NCBI GenBank assembly: GCA_946480525.1
Contig: CAMLLA010000180.1
Location: 1 to 8,126, forward strand
Reading direction: 5' to 3'
DNA: 8,126 bases
Origin: an uncultured Asticcacaulis sp.
Lineage (GTDB): Bacteria > Pseudomonadota > Alphaproteobacteria > Caulobacterales > Caulobacteraceae
Positions 1 to 8,069 of this stretch are shown here, piece after piece. Within the stretch, counting starts at the first letter, position 1. Every line of letters begins with the position of its first letter. The notes beneath the pieces are model-generated. The model had not been told where the DNA came from. It saw only the letters and a list, made by a program, of their open reading frames with translations, and searched no databases. Both the position numbers and the translations under genes were made by a program.

Positions 1-1529
1 AGTTGCGGACGCGACTGCTGATGCGTTCGGCCGCCCGCCTTGACAAGCTCCTGTCCGGCCAGATCCTGCACCGGCTGTATTCCATCCAGACGACCAGCGG
101 CAAAAGCGCGTCCTTCGCCGGCATGATGCGCGAATTCGACACGTTGAAAGGCGTCCTGAGCGGACCGGGCGTTATCGCCCTTTTCGACGCGCCGTGGATC
201 ATATTCTATCTCGGCCTGTGCTTTCTGCTGCACCCCTATCTGGGCGCACTGGCGCTGACCGCGGGCGGCAGCCTGGCGCTTATCACCTTCCTGAACGAAC
301 GCGCGACCTACGAAAAGATCACCTCGGCCAACCAGGCGATAGCCAGCGCCTATCTCGAACAGGAAGCCCTGACCTCGCGGGCGGATGTCATTCGCGCCCT
401 TGGCATGCAGGGCGAAATGGTCCAGGTGCAGCTCAAGAGCCGGAACATCGGTGTCAGCGAAGGCCTTCGCGCCAATGCGGCCGGGGATAATTTCGCGGCC
501 CTGACCAAGTTCCTGAAGATGCTGCTGCAATCCCTGGCCCTGGGCGTCGGCGCCTGGCTGGCGATCTCGCAGCAAATCTCCGCCGGCGCCATCTTCGCCG
601 CCTCCCTGCTGATGACGCGCTCGATCGCGCCCATGGAGCAGATCATTGGGCAATGGCGCAGCCTGACAAAGGGCTATAACGCCTATAAGAAGCTCAACAG
701 CCTGTTCTACCAGGTCGATCCGGAGCCCCAGCTGGTGCAGTTGCCGGCGCCCAAGGCATCGCTGACGGTCGATAACCTGACGGTCGCCAATCGCGAACAG
801 CGGCGCTACTTCCTGCAAGGCGTATCATTTACAGTAAAGGCCGGAGAAACGATTGCCATCATCGGTCCCAGCGGCGCCGGGAAGACGACCCTGGCGCGGG
901 CCATTGTCGGGATCGACAGCTATGATTACGGCACGGTCCGCTTCGACGGCTCCGAACGTTCCGAATGGGACCAGCAGCGCCTGGGCAAATGCATCGGCTT
1001 CCTGCCCCAGGATACCTGCCTCTTCCCGGGTACGATCGCAGCCAATATCAGCCGTTTTGAAGGCACGCTGAATTCAGACTCGCTACTGATCGACCAGAAG
1101 ATCGTCGAGGCCGCTAAGGCCGCCGGCGCCCACGACATGATCTCGAAGTTCCCGCAGGGCTACAACACCGTGCTTGGCGCGGGAGGTTCAGGCCTGTCCG
1201 CCGGACAGGCGCAGAGAATCGGGTTGGCGCGCGCCCTGTACGGTGATCCGTTCCTTCTGGTCCTGGACGAGCCGAACGCCCATCTTGACCAGGAAGGCGA
1301 AGACGCCCTGATGAAGGTCATTCAGTCGTTCTGCGATCGCGGCGGTGCCGTCATGGTGATCGTGCACCGCGCCGCCATCCTGTCGGTCGTCAACAAGATC
1401 CTGTTCCTGAAAAATGGCCGAGCCGCCTTCTTCGGCACGCGGGACGAATGGGTCAAGGCCCAGCAGCCTCAGGCCCAGATCGATGGCGACGACGCCAGCA
1501 GCCGGCCGGCCCTGGCGAAAAGCAACTGA
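1..1529 (+). CDS. Type I secretion ABC transporter, PrtD/HlyB-like permease-ATPase (5' partial)
   Basis: Inner-membrane energy-providing subunit of a type I secretion system, which moves unfolded RTX-type proteins from cytoplasm to medium with a HlyD-like adaptor and a TolC-like pore. The frame is open to the left edge; the first whole codon is TTG at 3, and family members of about 570-590 residues suggest 65-80 N-terminal residues are missing. Numbering from that codon, the membrane domain includes hydrophobic segments near 56-97 (with the family-typical LFDAPW) and 168-206, followed by SIAPMEQIIGQW. The ATPase domain shows Walker A GPSGAGKTT (288-296), Q-loop Q336, signature LSAGQ (398-402), Walker B LLVLDE (418-423) and H-loop H455. 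The LSAGQ form and the following ARALYGDP are typical of the PrtD subfamily. It is followed after 54 bases by the adaptor gene, so the two are presumably one operon. The general call is secure; the substrate is inferred. Confidence 0.93.
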   Translation, partial: LRTRLLMRSAARLDKLLSGQILHRLYSIQTTSGKSASFAGMMREFDTLKGVLSGPGVIALFDAPWIIFYLGLCFLLHPYLGALALTAGGSLALITFLNERATYEKITSANQAIASAYLEQEALTSRADVIRALGMQGEMVQVQLKSRNIGVSEGLRANAAGDNFAALTKFLKMLLQSLALGVGAWLAISQQISAGAIFAASLLMTRSIAPMEQIIGQWRSLTKGYNAYKKLNSLFYQVDPEPQLVQLPAPKASLTVDNLTVANREQRRYFLQGVSFTVKAGETIAIIGPSGAGKTTLARAIVGIDSYDYGTVRFDGSERSEWDQQRLGKCIGFLPQDTCLFPGTIAANISRFEGTLNSDSLLIDQKIVEAAKAAGAHDMISKFPQGYNTVLGAGGSGLSAGQAQRIGLARALYGDPFLLVLDEPNAHLDQEGEDALMKVIQSFCDRGGAVMVIVHRAAILSVVNKILFLKNGRAAFFGTRDEWVKAQQPQAQIDGDDASSRPALAKSN

Positions 1530-1583: not shown

Positions 1584-2960
1584 ATGAGCGACAACGCACT
1601 CGTTAATACCGACAAGACCGAGATTGCCGTCGATCTCGACGGCCGCCCCGTCGAACAGGACGATCCGCGCCGCGATATTCGCAACGGTTTCATTTTCGTT
1701 GGCGTCTTCTTTCTTCTGTTCGTCGGATTGGCAGCGCTTATCCGCGTCGATGCGGCGATCTACTCCCACGGGTCGATCGTCGTCAGTGGCTCCAGGCAAC
1801 AGATTCAGCACCGCGAAGGCGGCGTCATCACGGCCGTAAGGGTTCGCGAAGGCGATTATGTCAAACAGGGCCAGGTCCTGATCGAGCTGGCCGGCGACAA
1901 TACCGAAGCCAACGCGCTGGCGCTCAAGTCCGAATATATCAAGCTGATGATCACCCAGGCCCGTCTCCTGGCGGAAATGAAAAGGGCGGGCAGTTTTGCC
2001 GAGCCGCCGGAGCTGAAAATGTTCACGGGCGCAGACCGCGTGCTGGTCGACAACGAAATGGCGACGCAACGCCAGGCCATGAACTTGCGTTATCGCGAAA
2101 TCAACGATCAGGTGACGGTCCTGGCCAAGCGCCGTAACCAGACGCAGGAGATGATCGCTGGCGCCCAGCGTCAGCTGCAACTGAACGACAGGCGCCGGGC
2201 GCTGGCGCAGGACGAACTGACCAGTGTCGAAGGCCTGGAAGCCAAGGGGTACGCACCCAAGACGCGCGTCCGCCAGCTCCAGCAATCGATCGCGGGCCTT
2301 GAGTCCGACAATGCCGGTCTTAATGCCGACATGCGCCGCAACATCGCCAGCATTACGGAACTTAGCGCCCAGGAAAACTCGGTTCGCAGCCAGGCCGCGG
2401 CCCAGATCGTTCAGCAGTTGGAACAGATCAGCAGCCGCCTGAGCGAGGTCGCGCCAGGCATGACGTCAGCATCGGCTCAGCTTGGCCGCACGACCGTCAA
2501 GGCAACCTCCACCGGCCGTGTCGTCGGCCTGACCGTGCACAATGCCGGCGCCGTCGTGACGCCCGGCCAGGTCATGCTGGAAATTGTTCCTGACGACGCG
2601 CCTCTGATTATCGAAGCCATGGTCGACGCCAAGGATGGCGATGACATCCGTCCCCAGCAGGAAGCCCAGATCCGCTTCAGCGCCATTCAGGAACGCGACC
2701 TGCCGATTCTGAAAGGCAAGGTGCTCAAGATTTCTCCGGACACCTTCCAGGACCAGAAGACCGGCGTGCATTTCTATAAGGCGCAGGTTGAGGTCAGCCC
2801 TTCGGCGGTCAACGAGATTTCCAAGGTGCGTGGCGGCAAGGATGTCCTCAAGCCCGGTCTGCCGGTGGAGATCATTGTGCCGCTACGCAAGCGCACGATC
2901 CTCGGCTACCTGTTCGAGCCGCTGAATCAGACATTCTGGCGCAGCTTCCGGGAGCACTGA
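1584..2960 (+). CDS. HlyD/PrtE-family type I secretion membrane-fusion protein
   Basis: Periplasmic adaptor linking the ABC transporter to an outer-membrane TolC-like pore. The 458 residues fit the family (about 430-480). A short cytoplasmic N-terminus is followed by one membrane segment (about 35-54). Next comes the first half of a lipoyl-like domain (about 62-102, with the family-typical REGGVI and VREGDYVKQGQ), a Gln/Arg/Ala-rich coiled-coil hairpin (about 105-285), the second lipoyl half (about 301-336, ATSTGRVVGLTV then VVTPGQVMLEIVP), and a beta-barrel region ending PGLPVEIIVPLRKRT...YLFEPL, the usual C-terminus of PrtE/HlyD adaptors. The start at 1584 is taken because the next in-frame Met lies far inside the protein; its Shine-Dalgarno match is poor, so translation may be coupled to the transporter gene upstream. 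The subunit assignment is secure. Confidence 0.94.
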   Translation: MSDNALVNTDKTEIAVDLDGRPVEQDDPRRDIRNGFIFVGVFFLLFVGLAALIRVDAAIYSHGSIVVSGSRQQIQHREGGVITAVRVREGDYVKQGQVLIELAGDNTEANALALKSEYIKLMITQARLLAEMKRAGSFAEPPELKMFTGADRVLVDNEMATQRQAMNLRYREINDQVTVLAKRRNQTQEMIAGAQRQLQLNDRRRALAQDELTSVEGLEAKGYAPKTRVRQLQQSIAGLESDNAGLNADMRRNIASITELSAQENSVRSQAAAQIVQQLEQISSRLSEVAPGMTSASAQLGRTTVKATSTGRVVGLTVHNAGAVVTPGQVMLEIVPDDAPLIIEAMVDAKDGDDIRPQQEAQIRFSAIQERDLPILKGKVLKISPDTFQDQKTGVHFYKAQVEVSPSAVNEISKVRGGKDVLKPGLPVEIIVPLRKRTILGYLFEPLNQTFWRSFREH

Positions 2961-3014: not shown

Positions 3015-4010
3015 ATGCAGAGGATGCTGCTGAGGGGTTTGGGGATTGTCGGGGCGTCACTGCTGCCTCTGTCGGTGCAGTCTGAACCCAAGACCGTCAC
3101 GTTCGTCCAGCCGGTGTCCTGCAAGCTGGGCGAAACGTGCGTGATCCAGCAGTATTTCGATCACGACCCTGGTTCAGGGGCTGCGGACTATCGATGCGGG
3201 GCACAGACCTACGATGGTCACGACGGCACGGATTTCCGCATCCCGGACCAGACCTTCCTGGCCAAAGGCGTTCCGGTCGTCGCCGCGGCCGATGGCGTTA
3301 TCCTGGGTGTCCGCGACGGAGAGCCGGACGCAACGGGGTCTGGCTATGACGAGGCGGCGGTTGCGGGCAAGGAATGCGGCAACGGCGTGGTCATCCGCCA
3401 CTCCGTTGGCTGGGAAACGCAATACTGCCATATGCGCAAGGGGTCGATCCAGGTTCGGAAACACACGCTGGTAAAGGCCGGCGCGGTCCTGGGCTACGTC
3501 GGACAATCAGGCAAGGCAGCGTTTCCGCACATGCACTTTTCCGTCCGGCACAACGGTGAAAAGGTCGACCCCTTCTTCAGCCAGGCGGCGTGCAGCACGG
3601 ACGCATCATTGACCGGATCGAAATGGCGCCCTGAGGACCAGAAAGCCCTGGCCTATCGACCGGCTTTCGTCCTCAACAGCGGTTTCACCACGGCCACCCT
3701 GGAGATGAACGACGTGGAAAGGGCGGGCTTGCCGGTACCGAATGCTGGTTCAGCCGTGCTCATCGCCTATGTCCGGGCGATAGGATTGCTCAAGGGAGAT
3801 GTTCAGCATCTTGTGGTGAAGGATCCCGACGGCGATGTGTTTGTCGAAAACGCCGAGGCGCCTCTCGACCGCAACAAGGCCCAGTACCTTCTCTACAGCG
3901 GGCGTAAACGGCCCGCGACGGGCTGGCGCAAGGGCAGGTATTCGGCACGCTACACGATTACCCGGCAGGGACAGGTCGTGGCCGGCACAAGCTTCGACTT
4001 CACGATGTAG
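3015..4010 (+). CDS. Exported M23-family (LytM-type) zinc metallopeptidase
   Basis: Likely periplasmic peptidoglycan endopeptidase of 331 residues. A signal peptide is visible (about 1-23: basic MQRMLLR, hydrophobic core, likely cut near VQS/E). The M23 core carries the expected metal and catalytic residues: H69xxxD73 (YDGHDGTDF), H139 (TQYCHM) and H172xH174 (PHMHF). By family knowledge H69, D73 and H174 bind zinc while H139 and H172 act in catalysis, so the enzyme looks active. Six cysteines (36, 42, 61, 121, 138, 193) suit disulphides in the periplasm. Residues of about 215-331 form an extra C-terminal region I do not recognise. GAGGA at 3001-3005, nine bases before ATG, supports the start. 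It lies 54 bases after the adaptor gene and probably shares its transcript. Whether it serves the secretion system or general wall remodelling cannot be told from sequence. Confidence 0.9.
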   Translation: MQRMLLRGLGIVGASLLPLSVQSEPKTVTFVQPVSCKLGETCVIQQYFDHDPGSGAADYRCGAQTYDGHDGTDFRIPDQTFLAKGVPVVAAADGVILGVRDGEPDATGSGYDEAAVAGKECGNGVVIRHSVGWETQYCHMRKGSIQVRKHTLVKAGAVLGYVGQSGKAAFPHMHFSVRHNGEKVDPFFSQAACSTDASLTGSKWRPEDQKALAYRPAFVLNSGFTTATLEMNDVERAGLPVPNAGSAVLIAYVRAIGLLKGDVQHLVVKDPDGDVFVENAEAPLDRNKAQYLLYSGRKRPATGWRKGRYSARYTITRQGQVVAGTSFDFTM

Positions 4011-4069: not shown

Positions 4070-4645
4070 TCAGAAGATAAAGTCGCTGGCTGAGACCGAG
4101 GCAACACCCTTCAGGAAGATCGAAGTGTTGTTGAATTCGATCAGCGTGCCGCCATTGACGCTTTCGATGTCGAGCTTGCTGAACTTCGTGAAGGCCAGAC
4201 CAAGGTCGATCTTGTCCACGCCGCTGACGAAATCGACGATCTGGTCGTAGCCGTCGTTGCGATCGAAGTGGAAGACGTCACTGCCCGCACCGCCGGCAAT
4301 AAGGTCGTCGCCGTCGCCGGCCCAGATGTGGTCATTGCCGGCGTCGGCCATGATGCGGTCGTTACCCTTGCCGCCGAACAGCACATCGTTGCCGTCACGG
4401 CCCCAGATGATATCGTCGCCCTTGCCGGAAAAGACCCAGTCGTCGCCCTTGCCGGCGGTCAGGTTGTCACTGCCCTTGCCGCCGAAGACCAGATCGTCAC
4501 CGGTGCCGGCGTTGACCACGTCGTCGCCCTTGCCGGCGACGATGATGTCGTTGCCGGTAGTAGCGGTCAGGTTATCATTGAGCTTAGTGCCGACCAGAAG
4601 ATTAAGAGTGCTCAGTTTTCCGAGCAGATTAAGCAGAACAGACAT
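4070..4645 (-). CDS. Small RTX (hemolysin-type calcium-binding) secreted protein
   Basis: A 191-residue protein built almost wholly of RTX repeats. A leucine-rich N-terminus (1-18) is followed by twelve in-register nonapeptides (19-126), for example AGKGDDVVN, GGKGSDNLT and GGKGNDRIM. By family knowledge these bind calcium and fold into a beta-roll outside the cell. The tail (about 124-191) has the serralysin-like FDRNDGYDQIVDFVSGVDKIDL and ends ASDFIF, a typical uncleaved type I secretion signal (acidic residue then hydrophobics at the very C-terminus). There is no Sec signal, no protease HExxH and no other effector domain. GAGGG (4652-4656) six bases before ATG supports the start. It faces the ABC/adaptor operon across a shared terminator and is the likely cargo of that exporter. 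A structural, adhesive or matrix role is inference; it could also be a shortened relic of a larger RTX protein, although the frame is intact. Confidence 0.92.
   Translation of the reverse strand: MSVLLNLLGKLSTLNLLVGTKLNDNLTATTGNDIIVAGKGDDVVNAGTGDDLVFGGKGSDNLTAGKGDDWVFSGKGDDIIWGRDGNDVLFGGKGNDRIMADAGNDHIWAGDGDDLIAGGAGSDVFHFDRNDGYDQIVDFVSGVDKIDLGLAFTKFSKLDIESVNGGTLIEFNNTSIFLKGVASVSASDFIF
4268..4591 (-). repeat. Twelve tandem 27-bp units encoding RTX nonapeptides
   Basis: The coding stretch for residues 19-126 of the RTX protein has a strict 27-base period with no insertions. On the + strand the sub-motif GTCGCCCTTGCCGG recurs exactly at several units and close variants occur in others. The periodicity also opens long frames on the opposite strand, which are shadows. 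Repeat number could change by slippage or recombination. Confidence 0.85.
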
Positions 4646-4784: not shown

Positions 4785-5340
4785 ATTCTGGAACTGCTGC
4801 CTGCCCACACAAAGCCATCTTTTTAACTTTTTAGAAATTTATCACCCCTGCTGATTGAATCGATACGGGTAGCGATGGGGTACCTGTCGCCTGGAAAGGG
4901 ATACCGCACATGCCCAGCGGACGAAGGTGCTAAAATACCCGACCCGCACCCGGACTTTCGTCACCGTCTTGAAGCGGATGGCCTGTATCAGTTTCCCGCG
5001 CCGCAGAACGGCAGCCTGGGCGGCGATCGATGGAGAAGCCGGAGCGGCGCTGCCACGCCTTTGGAATGGGGCTTCATTGTCGCATTTTCATCACATGAGA
5101 CGACGAACACACATCGGGATCACCGTGCGTTCTTCGGCATTCGTAAACCCGGCGGAAATTGGGAAGGCTTGTAAAAATGAGCTTGCGGTGGGCGGGCCCG
5201 GTCTCCCGTTACCAATATCCGCCGTGAGGAAAGGGTAGTCCGCGCAATCAACCCGCAGGAGTCATGGCTTTGCCTCTGTGCTCGCCGATGCCAGGTTTGT
5301 GAAGCCGTCGGCTGCTGTGGGTGGGCGACCTTCCGGGCGA

Positions 5341-5357
5341 TGGCATAACAATTGCTT
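5341..5357 (+). promoter_or_regulatory. Sigma-54 (RpoN) type -24/-12 promoter for the small membrane-protein gene
   Basis: TGGCATAACAATTGCTT matches the RpoN consensus TGGCACG-N4-TTGCW. The invariant GG (5342-5343) and GC (5354-5355) are exactly 10 bases apart, and the TTGCT -12 box is perfect. The two differences are at the last two bases of the -24 box. Transcription would start near 5367, giving a leader of about 34 bases. RpoN promoters need an activator ATPase bound upstream, so the gene would be tightly switched; no activator gene is in the window. Confidence 0.6.
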
Positions 5358-5400
5358 GTCCGTCTATTGGCGAGTTATTAATAAAGGCTAGGGGACATCC

Positions 5401-5562
5401 ATGGACAACGAAGTACTAGCAATTCCTTCAGCACCGGCAATAGGTGTTCTTTTCGACACCGTCATCTTTGCGGTGTTTGTCACCATCGTTGCCGGCATCA
5501 TCGGCTGTGTAACGGTGCTGAATGCGCTGGATTCGAAATCGAGGCTCAAGGTGACGGTTTGA
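5401..5562 (+). CDS. Small single-pass membrane protein of unknown function (53 aa)
   Basis: A 53-codon frame, ATG at 5401 to TGA at 5560-5562, well supported by context: AGGGGA at 5390-5395 with a five-base spacer, a sigma-54-like promoter 44 bases upstream, and a strong terminator 20 bases downstream. The N-terminus is acidic and proline-containing (MDNEVLAIPSAPAIG). Residues of about 20-40 form one membrane helix (TVIFAVFVTIVAGIIGCVTV...), and the tail is short and basic (DSKSRLK). The charge pattern predicts N-terminus outside and C-terminus in the cytoplasm. C36 follows IIG and would fit a lipobox, but the N-terminus lacks the usual basic residues, so a lipoprotein is unlikely. I recognise no family. 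It stands alone between the RTX gene and the polysaccharide operon. Small toxin, membrane-complex accessory or envelope-stress peptide are all possible, and none is supported by a motif. Confidence 0.72.
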   Translation: MDNEVLAIPSAPAIGVLFDTVIFAVFVTIVAGIIGCVTVLNALDSKSRLKVTV

Positions 5563-5582
5563 TCCCGGCGGAGACAGGTATC

Positions 5583-5626
5583 AAAACAAAGGGCCATTGC
5601 GGTATCCCGCAATGGCCCTTTGTTTT
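5583..5626. terminator. Strong bidirectional terminator with a perfect 20-bp stem
   Basis: Bases 5583-5602 pair without mismatch to 5607-5626 around the loop TATC. The stem has a GC-rich core (GGGCCATTGCGG) flanked by A-rich and T-rich arms, giving TTTGTTTTT on the + strand. It follows the small membrane-protein stop by 20 bases and lies 18 bases beyond the glycosyltransferase stop on the - strand, so it insulates the two convergent units. Confidence 0.93.
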
Positions 5627-5644
5627 TCTGTCCTTGCTCCGTGT

Positions 5645-6754
5645 CTATGCCGACACGGGCTGGTCAAGCGGCTCAAGACGATTGGTCCCTAAGGACTGAT
5701 ACACGCCGATCGTCTTTTCGGCGACATGCGACCAGGTCAGGAAGTTGCCCTTGTCGACCACGTACTCGGCCTGGTTTTCAATGCCGTGCGTAAGCTTGGC
5801 CGAAATGGCGTCGATGTCGTTAGGGTCGACAAAGTGATGGCTGGGCAGCGGCATGTCCTTGTTTTCCGGAATGTCGCTGATCAGCACGGAGCAGCCCTGG
5901 CTGATGGCTTCAAGTGTCGCGTTGGACGACCCCTCGTGCAGCGAAACGTTGACGTACAACGCGCTGCGCTTCAACAGCGCCGGCACGCTGGAGCGCGGCA
6001 CGCGGCCCAGAAGCTTGACCTTGTCATTCAGAAGGGGGCGCAACTGTTCTGCGTAGGGTTCGTCGTCGAGGCCGCCGGCGACAACCAGATCATACTCGGG
6101 ATGCGTTTCGCTCAGCTTGTTGAATGACCTGACCAAGTTTATCACGTTCTTCTGGTAGGTGACACGGCCGACCGAAAGAATGAACGGACGATCCGAGGAC
6201 AATGGCAAATGGCTATCCGACACAATGGCCGGGTCCAGTGCATTGGGGATCATGTGAACATTTTTCTTAATGCCCTTTTTCGCCAGGCGATCGCTTAGCG
6301 CCGGCGTGACCGAAATCACGGCGTCGGCAAAACGCAGCTGCCATTCGGCAAACAGGAAGCCCAGCCGGCCGACAAACCCCCACTTATTGAGGATGTAATC
6401 CGCCGACCCATAGCGCACGACCGTCTTGCAGCCGAACAGCTTGTATACAAGCAGGAATACGGCGGAGCCCAGGCCCTGCAGGTGGACGACATCCGGCCGC
6501 ATCTTCAATACCTGGTAGATCGCATACAGATAATAGGCGATCTTGTCGGTATTCAGAAACTTGACGGTGGGTGACGCAAGCAGCTGAACGCCCCTGTATT
6601 GCTCCCCTTTGATGTATTTGTGCAGGCCCATGACGGTTACGTCATATCCGGCTGCCGCCATCAACGGGAAAAGGACTTCGGCATTTTTTTCGGCGCCACC
6701 TTCGACATCGGGAATGCCACGCGCTCCGATAACCAGTACTTTTTTAGACTGCAT
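5645..6754 (-). CDS. GT4-family glycosyltransferase (surface polysaccharide synthesis)
   Basis: A 369-residue cytoplasmic, probably membrane-associated GT-B enzyme, expected to transfer a sugar from a nucleotide donor onto a lipid-linked oligosaccharide with retention of configuration. The N-terminal domain starts KKVLVIGARGIPDVEGGAEK (4-23), with the acceptor-side glycine loop EGGAE and the RGIPxxxGG form seen in O-antigen and exopolysaccharide transferases. The C-terminal domain has SVGRVTYQKN (194-203; R197 and K202 expected to bind the donor diphosphate) and the GT4 E-x7-E motif at E274 and E282 (HEGSSNATLEAISQG). Length is normal and no key residue is missing. AGGGG at 6763-6767, eight bases before ATG, supports the start, which overlaps the stop of the polymerase gene by 11 bases; translation is probably coupled. 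Donor and acceptor sugars cannot be read from sequence. Confidence 0.92.
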   Translation of the reverse strand: MQSKKVLVIGARGIPDVEGGAEKNAEVLFPLMAAAGYDVTVMGLHKYIKGEQYRGVQLLASPTVKFLNTDKIAYYLYAIYQVLKMRPDVVHLQGLGSAVFLLVYKLFGCKTVVRYGSADYILNKWGFVGRLGFLFAEWQLRFADAVISVTPALSDRLAKKGIKKNVHMIPNALDPAIVSDSHLPLSSDRPFILSVGRVTYQKNVINLVRSFNKLSETHPEYDLVVAGGLDDEPYAEQLRPLLNDKVKLLGRVPRSSVPALLKRSALYVNVSLHEGSSNATLEAISQGCSVLISDIPENKDMPLPSHHFVDPNDIDAISAKLTHGIENQAEYVVDKGNFLTWSHVAEKTIGVYQSLGTNRLEPLDQPVSA

Positions 6755-8069
6755 AACTTATGCCCCTAGTTCTTAGTTCTTTGGCTTGCGCATAATACCG
6801 CAATGTCAGCCCACACATTAGTCCGTAAAGGATAACACCTTCGATGTTAACATTAGGCATAGTTGACAAGGTTAATAAAAAATAACTGATATGCAAGGAT
6901 GTTAATACAATCCTATACTTTGGAGTACATCTTAACGAATAATAAATCATGGTCAACATGCTAATAATCGTCAATACGACGCCAGAGATGCCGTATTCAT
7001 AAATGAACGAAACGAACATGTTGTGGGCGTATTTTTCGAACACGCCCTTCCATGCGTCCGGACCGAAGCCAATAAAGGGCTGCAGTCCCTTTCCTTCGGC
7101 GGCGGCATGCAGATAACCCGACCACAGCTGCAGGCGGCCGGACAGGAACTGCCGTTCAGGCGTCGTAAATTCGTGCGGCATTTTTTCGAGCAGGGCGATC
7201 TTGTCGGCGATCATCAGCAACTCGCCGAAACGGTCCTGGTTCATCGTAAACAATACGACGACCCCGGCGACGCCGGCGGTAACCAGACCGCCCCGGATCA
7301 GCCATGTCGTGGACAGGCGCCTGACCTGGATGGACGAAATCAGAAAGGCGCCGAACATCGGCAGCGCCGCCAGAAGCGCTGTCCGGTAGTTGCTCAGGAC
7401 AATGGAAACAAGGCTGATCGAGCACCACAGCAGCTTGGTACGGAAGGTGATGTCACGATTGGCGACCGTGATCACCATAAGCGCCAGGGGAATCATCGAG
7501 AAGGTGGCTTCGTGAACATAGCCGCCGATGTAGCTGACGGAGCCGTCGCCTTCGGTCGCCTTGAACTGGCCGGTCGCCAGTGAGATCGCCTGATACAGCA
7601 AAGGCACCGCAAAGGCCTTGGTCAGGACGGTAAAGTTGAAGCGGTCGTCGTCCGGCAGCAGGAATACGGCGACGGCCACGGAGAAGAACAGCACCTGCCG
7701 GATAAGGGCGTTGACCAGGCCGACATACTCCTGGTTGGCCACGCCGCTCAAGACGATCAACACAGTGAATATGTAGAAGACCGCCAGATATTTCAGCTGG
7801 AAAATCCGGGGGCCCAGAGCCCAGACGCCGGCCACCATGAACAGGATCGTCGACAGGGCATTGATGCTCTGGCCGGCGGCGATGGGAACGATGGTGTAGA
7901 CGTGCAGGAAATTCAGCACATAGCGAAGAAGCATCAACAGGAAGAGAAAGCGGAGCGGGGTGCTCAACCGCCTGGTTACGCCCAGCCACAAGAGGACCAA
8001 CAGGGCGAATATCCCTATGGCTAGCTCTGGTATCCCCAACATGGGGGCTCTGGCGACGACCTCGTCCAT
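6744..8069 (-). CDS. O-antigen ligase/Wzy-type polysaccharide polymerase, polytopic membrane protein
   Basis: A 441-residue inner-membrane protein with about ten or more hydrophobic segments across 15-270 and 351-425, and one large hydrophilic loop (about 276-350) expected in the periplasm. That is the Wzy_C/WaaL architecture. Family-like features are SNYRTALLAALP (226-237), SGRLQLWSGYL (310-320), a glycine-rich FIGFGPDAW (332-340) and AHNMFVSFIYEYGISGVV (348-365). Such proteins polymerise or ligate undecaprenyl-linked sugar units; which of the two applies cannot be decided here. The neighbouring glycosyltransferase, starting inside its last codons, supports polysaccharide assembly. The start at 8069 is preceded by tandem AAGGA motifs (8081-8085, 8087-8091) and lies within an inverted repeat; Met10 at 8042 is an alternative. 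The last third of the gene (about 6770-7000) is strikingly AT-rich. Confidence 0.87.
   Translation of the reverse strand: MDEVVARAPMLGIPELAIGIFALLVLLWLGVTRRLSTPLRFLFLLMLLRYVLNFLHVYTIVPIAAGQSINALSTILFMVAGVWALGPRIFQLKYLAVFYIFTVLIVLSGVANQEYVGLVNALIRQVLFFSVAVAVFLLPDDDRFNFTVLTKAFAVPLLYQAISLATGQFKATEGDGSVSYIGGYVHEATFSMIPLALMVITVANRDITFRTKLLWCSISLVSIVLSNYRTALLAALPMFGAFLISSIQVRRLSTTWLIRGGLVTAGVAGVVVLFTMNQDRFGELLMIADKIALLEKMPHEFTTPERQFLSGRLQLWSGYLHAAAEGKGLQPFIGFGPDAWKGVFEKYAHNMFVSFIYEYGISGVVLTIISMLTMIYYSLRCTPKYRIVLTSLHISYFLLTLSTMPNVNIEGVILYGLMCGLTLRYYAQAKELRTRGISYAV

Follow-up and report, generated by a model that had tools for sequence, protein, structure and literature searches.

A conserved microprotein gene behind a sigma-54-type promoter box in a polysaccharide and type I secretion locus of Asticcacaulis

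This locus of an uncultured Asticcacaulis sp. (family Caulobacteraceae) raises the question whether the short interval between its type I secretion genes and its polysaccharide genes holds a separately controlled gene, and what the product of such a gene may do there. The window, i.e. the whole stretch of 8126 nucleotides that was analysed, carries the features given below. Profile matches agree with the location that the original prediction gave for this unit, flanked by an RTX/type I secretion set on one side and by polysaccharide genes on the other. Identities refer to the corresponding locus (L001) of A. solisilvae BE327.

3–1529, plus strand: type I secretion ABC transporter, PrtD type (TIGR01842, 516.9 bits against a cut-off of 510.15)
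1584–2960, plus strand: HlyD-family type I secretion adaptor (TIGR01843, 296.3 bits against a cut-off of 208.65)
3015–4010, plus strand: M23-family peptidase-like protein (PF01551, E 2.6e-20)
4070–4645, minus strand: small RTX calcium-binding repeat protein of 191 residues, divergent neighbour (PF00353, E 1.2e-31)
5076–5097, plus strand: second conserved upstream block, TTGTCGYATTTTCATCACATG (20/22 identical)
5247–5278, plus strand: conserved upstream block, ATCAACCCGC... (24/31 identical for 5248–5278)
5341–5356, plus strand: -24/-12 box of sigma-54 (RpoN) type, TGGCATAACAATTGCT (identical at L001 9942–9957)
5367–5400, plus strand: predicted untranslated leader with AGGGGA and the conserved TAATAAAGGC (25/34 identical)
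5401–5562, plus strand: 53-codon gene for a single-pass membrane microprotein (relatives, dN/dS, predicted helix)
5583–5626, strandless: perfect 20-bp hairpin, probable bidirectional terminator (pairing and folding energy)
5645–6754, minus strand: group 1 glycosyltransferase, convergent neighbour (PF00534, E 7.8e-22)
6744–8069, minus strand: Wzy/O-antigen-ligase-like membrane protein (PF04932, E 7e-9)

The unit thus runs from box through leader and frame to hairpin. The profile match of the ABC transporter begins at position 65 of TIGR01842, and the 5' end of its gene probably lies outside the window. A conserved AT-rich block at 4815–4859 (run AAATTTATCACCCC at 4835–4848), some 190 bases ahead of the small RTX gene, is probably part of the control region of that gene.

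The 53-codon frame is almost certainly a real gene. A database search with the single protein returned eight proteins including the window's own, and a profile search returned 12, i.e. 11 others, the weakest at E 1.2e-16. When the 12 are aligned, 20 positions prove invariant, and these cluster in the helix. When 50 of the 53 codons were compared with A. solisilvae, 23 synonymous and 15 nonsynonymous changes were counted (dN 0.148, dS 1.22, dN/dS about 0.12), showing that the frame is under selection. It passed the comparison with relatives for stops, frameshifts and lack of synonymous bias by which the original prediction was to be judged. A chance open reading frame was rejected on the basis of the 11 other database proteins and the low dN/dS.

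The choice of strand was made from the pattern of changes over 49 codons. In the sense frame, 37/49 residues are identical between window and A. solisilvae, and the changes fall 12/3/22 by codon position; the other frames keep 22 to 30 of 49 residues. Among these, a shifted sense frame is also open in both species (22/49 identical), as is the antisense frame 5388–5612 (30/49 identical), the latter figure being explained by the coincidence of antisense third positions with third positions of the sense frame. Openness alone therefore cannot choose the strand. The change pattern, which is 3/12/22 for the antisense frame as against 12/3/22 for the sense frame, the usual one for coding, and the 11 relatives favour the sense frame, and the antisense frame was rejected as a real gene.

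The absence of a recognised family, also claimed at the outset, was confirmed, as the window's protein hit 0 families in Pfam, NCBIfam (E <= 1) and PHROGs. Weak Pfam matches were seen for single family members only (E 0.0032, 0.032 and 0.071, one member each). The best E value in a PDB sequence search was 0.38, Rfam gave no match at gathering thresholds, and a search of the open literature by title revealed nothing on this gene among the matches listed. A phage or plasmid origin was rejected, as there was no plasmid match, no relative confirmed in viral contigs and no PHROG.

The product has one hydrophobic stretch (best Kyte–Doolittle 19-mer 2.77, residues 21–39), and an AlphaFold2 model contains a helix at residues 11–51 (mean pLDDT 78.8, 24 residues at pLDDT 90 or more), in line with the single membrane helix predicted for the intact frame. 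The charges before the helix are D2, E4 and D19 only, none of them positive, and lysines and arginine follow it. According to the positive-inside rule, these charges make an orientation with the N-terminus out and the lysine/arginine tail in most likely. A single helix offers no fold-based clue to function. Conservation is higher in the helix than in the tail, suggesting a partner in the membrane, and the invariant core of the helix, DT.IF.VF..IV.GIIGCV..LN, points to specific packing against such a partner. Assignment to known classes of small envelope proteins was not obtained: with 0 Pfam families for the window's protein there is no Flp/Tad pilin match (one of eight family members touches PF13400, Tad, at E 0.071), and with 0 NCBIfam families at E <= 1 there is none to PEP-CTERM. 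The microprotein may have a role in the envelope, as suggested in the original prediction.

The proposed GG-N10-GC promoter was found as TGGCATAACAATTGCT at 5341–5356, with TGG at 5341–5343, GC at 5354–5355 and ten bases separating GG from GC. The bare GG-N10-GC pattern has little evidential value, as it occurs 130 times in the window (both strands). The longer form TGGCAY-N5-TTGCW has one perfect site in the window, compared with 0.026 expected from 1000 dinucleotide shuffles, and TGGCATAACAATTGCT is the sole site with zero mismatches. Comparison by hand with the Caulobacter RpoN motif, reported as GGCNC-N4-CTTGC (PMC4287350), revealed agreement at 7/9 fixed bases and differences at 2/9. A transcript start at about 5367, 12 bases after the GC of the -12 element, is predicted from the position of the box. 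The good ribosome binding site of the original prediction proved to be AGGGGA at 5390–5395, 5 nt ahead of the ATG at 5401.

Conservation of the promoter was judged from two DNA sequences, those of the window and of A. solisilvae, and from a third inferred from a protein (P0009). L001 could be aligned to the window over the whole intergenic stretch. The box is identical in 17/17 columns (5340–5356), as against 29/61 for the 61 bases just upstream of it, so that between these two DNA sequences it is conserved beyond background. Identities for the other segments are 7/10 from box to start, 25/34 in the leader, 112/150 in the frame and 38/82 after the frame. No identical run in the non-coding stretch is longer than the one formed by the entire -24/-12 box; the leader element TAATAAAGGC (5379–5388) is conserved as well. 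Frame and box are thus conserved together, as had been anticipated for relatives, in A. solisilvae, the sole relative compared at the DNA level. P0009 is a database protein of 87 residues with an annotated start upstream of the box; its first 33 residues, which span box and leader in frame, are probably untranslated DNA read in frame. Back-translation fixes TGGC, is no more than compatible with TTGC and agrees with the window at 49/60 positions. Its sixth box base is C, nearer than the window's to the usual consensus of the -24 element, TGGCAC. We infer use of this box by RpoN, for which it very probably is the promoter.

Two blocks further upstream keep their distance from the box: 94 bases in the window and 91 in A. 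solisilvae for 5247–5278, and 264 and 262 bases, respectively, for 5076–5097. The position of the former would make it a possible activator or IHF region. Neither block is recognisable before the nine other exact boxes of the A. solisilvae genome, the best matches being 9/12 and 13/20, each with a free base.

The genome of A. solisilvae provides a setting for RpoN control. RpoN is present, and nine frames pass the cut-off for the sigma-54 activator domain, three with strong scores of 171 to 241 bits and six with weak ones of 23 to 38 bits. Of the three strong ones, two were named over cut-off, FlbD and NtrX; the third, which is NtrC-related and carries GSFTGA, was named by no model and may be TacA-like. 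The best PEP_resp_reg score among these three is 379.5 against a cut-off of 502.6, i.e. no PrsR-type activator was detected among them. The exact form TGGCAY-N5-TTGCW occurs ten times in this genome, compared with five times for the reversed control pattern. For the looser TGGCNY-N5-TTGC the figures are 177 and 98, which indicates that most loose sites are noise. The ten exact boxes are located as follows.

L010: 48 nt before FlgF, same strand
L013: 68 nt before flagellin, same strand; sixth base T, as in the window box
L018: 26 nt before HfaA, same strand
L017: 50 nt before an RTX protein, same strand
L009: 116 nt before RcdA, same strand
L016: 44 nt before the microprotein gene, same strand
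L011: 36 nt before an unnamed 49-residue frame (L011 1319–1465)
L014: 34 nt before an unnamed 59-residue frame (L014 1550–1726), also inside an opposite 226-residue frame
L015: 163 nt before an unnamed 231-residue frame
L012: inside a queuosine-synthesis gene, on the other strand; probably a chance site

FlgF, flagellin and HfaA are typical RpoN company; the first two belong to the flagellar genes, for which RpoN control is described in Caulobacter (PMC4287350). HfaA likewise counts among the RpoN-class genes. The box before the unnamed 231-residue frame lies about 18 kb from the A. solisilvae microprotein gene (C6:83329; L066 4472–5345), a closeness that is not significant by a rough hand estimate.

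In Caulobacter, RpoN motifs are described as serving the swarmer-to-stalk and flagellar classes of genes (PMC4287350). A Caulobacter screen for flagellum-signalled adhesion turned up rpoN and tacA, and its authors propose that the action of pleD on holdfast production runs via the tacA programme (PMC7885107). ShkA, stimulated by c-di-GMP, is reported to feed TacA (PMC7010744). An NtrC-type protein need not be the activator, as Caulobacter NtrC is described as being without the GAFTGA motif and acting at sigma-70 promoters (PMC12421884). By analogy, this literature would support developmental timing of the gene, not a mechanism.

At the other end of the unit, the hairpin 5583–5602/5607–5626 has 20/20 paired bases and a loop of 4 nt. 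The stretch 5560–5635 folds with -43.1 kcal/mol on the plus strand (z -7.65 against shuffles), and the minus strand folds about as well (-39.7 kcal/mol, z -8.57). The end of the convergent glycosyltransferase gene (5645) is 18 bases away. As the hairpin is palindromic and located between convergent genes, it probably ends both transcripts; the perfect 20-bp stem of the predicted terminator stood, and its assignment to this unit alone did not. A simple terminator scan did not have the hairpin 5583–5626 among its predictions, probably because the T run lies mostly inside the stem. A. solisilvae has a counterpart at L001 10308–10351 (91% complementary). Extra hairpins beside the microprotein gene at L001 10185–10291, one with a perfect 20-bp stem, are without counterpart in the window alignment and look like an inserted repeat element.

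The microprotein gene is lineage-restricted. It was found in 1/25 genomes of the genus, and this genome also has the glycosyltransferase (E <= 1e-60) and the small RTX protein (E <= 1e-20). Among 390 genomes of the family there is one full-length match; a second, partial match in genome G147 (22 residues, E 0.006), which falls within a frame of 149 residues, is probably due to chance. In the same 390 genomes, the glycosyltransferase (E <= 1e-60) and a close Wzy-like gene (83% identical) occur once each, both in the genome with the microprotein, and this co-occurrence of gene and cassette rests on that one positive genome. The locus around a distant Wzy-like relative (34%) in genome G206 revealed no microprotein motif. 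In A. solisilvae, L001 adds to the cassette a Wzz/AAA (Wzc-like) protein, a second AAA protein with a sub-threshold GNVR domain, a pectate-lyase-like protein, another group 1 glycosyltransferase, a polysaccharide flippase-type protein and an acyltransferase. L066 adds a UDP-sugar dehydrogenase, a family 2 glycosyltransferase, a hexapeptide transferase and two RTX proteins. Four more relatives of the window's small RTX protein (41–55% identity) are encoded on contigs 6 and 8 of this genome (G001; L059–L062).

Gene and cassette were found in one and the same genome, which makes an inner-membrane component of the polysaccharide/type I secretion cassette the most probable partner. In the reading that we prefer, with a probability of about 0.4, RpoN holoenzyme, opened by an enhancer-binding protein, would transcribe the short mRNA of a single-gene unit; to judge from A. 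solisilvae, FlbD or the NtrC/TacA-like protein carrying GSFTGA would be candidates for the activator. Translation would yield a bitopic protein of 53 residues in the inner membrane, with its N-terminus outside and its C-terminal lysine/arginine tail inside. This protein would dock on the Wzy-like protein, the Wzc-like kinase or the ABC exporter and adjust the activity of this partner in an RpoN-controlled phase of the developmental cycle. The gene, the selection on it, the conservation of the box and the context of the locus are the established parts of this scheme; use of RpoN, activator, topology, partner and direction of effect are the conditional ones. For a cassette-related role as such we see an even chance. 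In a bolder form, the RpoN-timed microprotein would gate the polysaccharide assembly or secretion machine posttranslationally, and the flagellar/holdfast RpoN programme of a stalked bacterium would reach a second surface polymer by way of one helix in a 53-residue protein; this we consider unlikely.

Another reading, also on the unlikely side, keeps gene and promoter but gives the membrane microprotein a general function within the RpoN developmental programme, in envelope, pole or attachment, so that it merely sits in the cassette. Its own promoter, separate from the neighbours, would fit such a role, as would the exact boxes that precede flagellar and holdfast genes at other sites of the A. 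solisilvae genome. However, a general role would not lead one to expect 389 other family genomes without a full-length match, and microprotein and cassette genes share a genome.

Quite improbable is a role as a small protein of the ExoX/PsiA kind that restrains polysaccharide synthesis posttranslationally. These rhizobial proteins are described as small, attached to the inner membrane and suggested inhibitors of the first sugar transferase, ExoY/PssA (PMC1403797). The setting is similar, with polysaccharide genes and PrtD-type secretion, but PsiA, with 10 kDa, is about twice the size, and no Bac_transf match (PF02397) was found among the scanned part of the frames of the window, L001 and L066 (L067 excluded).

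For the leader, its AT-rich stretch might be a -10 element of sigma-70 type, the RpoN box being secondary or unused. The sequences in question, TATAAT in L001 and TATTAA in the window, lie 19 and 18 bases, respectively, after TTGCTC/TTGCTT, and TAATAAAGGC, as noted, is conserved. This is nevertheless very unlikely, since the spacing is long and not the same in the two species, a promoter scan predicts no sigma-70 site here, the whole -24/-12 box is what remained unchanged as one run, and the same form of box precedes flagellar genes in A. solisilvae. Expression only under a defined signal, as the original prediction had it, would follow from RpoN control, and the TATAAT-like stretch leaves room for a second start of sigma-70 type.

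That the product is a secreted or lipid-anchored peptide, or cargo of the type I system, is scarcely credible: the invariant cysteine 36 follows I-I-G (IIGC 33–36), which fits the lipobox pattern, and secretion genes adjoin, but the distribution of charges, with no positive residue before the helix and lysines and arginine after it, is the opposite of that in a signal peptide, and the window's protein has no RTX match.

The microprotein and its locus have likenesses among known systems. Sigma-54-dependent genes of Caulobacterales (flagellin, FlgF, HfaA, spmX) have the same form of -24/-12 box, as seen in A. solisilvae for the first three, whereas the product here, a membrane protein of 53 residues, is an orphan located in a polysaccharide cassette. 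ExoX/PsiA resembles the microprotein in kind, as a small inner-membrane protein tied to alphaproteobacterial exopolysaccharide genes; PsiA is described as regulated by MucR/Psr (PMC1403797). The pepA gene of Aquincola, of PEP-CTERM type, is likewise reported to be under RpoN-type control and to affect surface polymers (PMC9850573), but the microprotein has no PEP-CTERM match and no strong A. solisilvae activator passes the PEP_resp_reg cut-off. Rhizobial PrsDE-type secretion with exopolysaccharide comprises, as in the window, a type I exporter, an adaptor and calcium-binding secreted proteins, and the passages on it in that account mention no such microprotein (PMC1403797).

Annotation often overlooks small membrane proteins, and a trigger is known for few of them. 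In the present case there are a promoter box that is both conserved and specific, a defined locus and, in A. solisilvae BE327, a relative that is named and sequenced. If the link to the cassette holds, the RpoN programme, which in Caulobacter is reported for flagellar and swarmer-to-stalk genes (PMC4287350), would be joined to another surface polymer.
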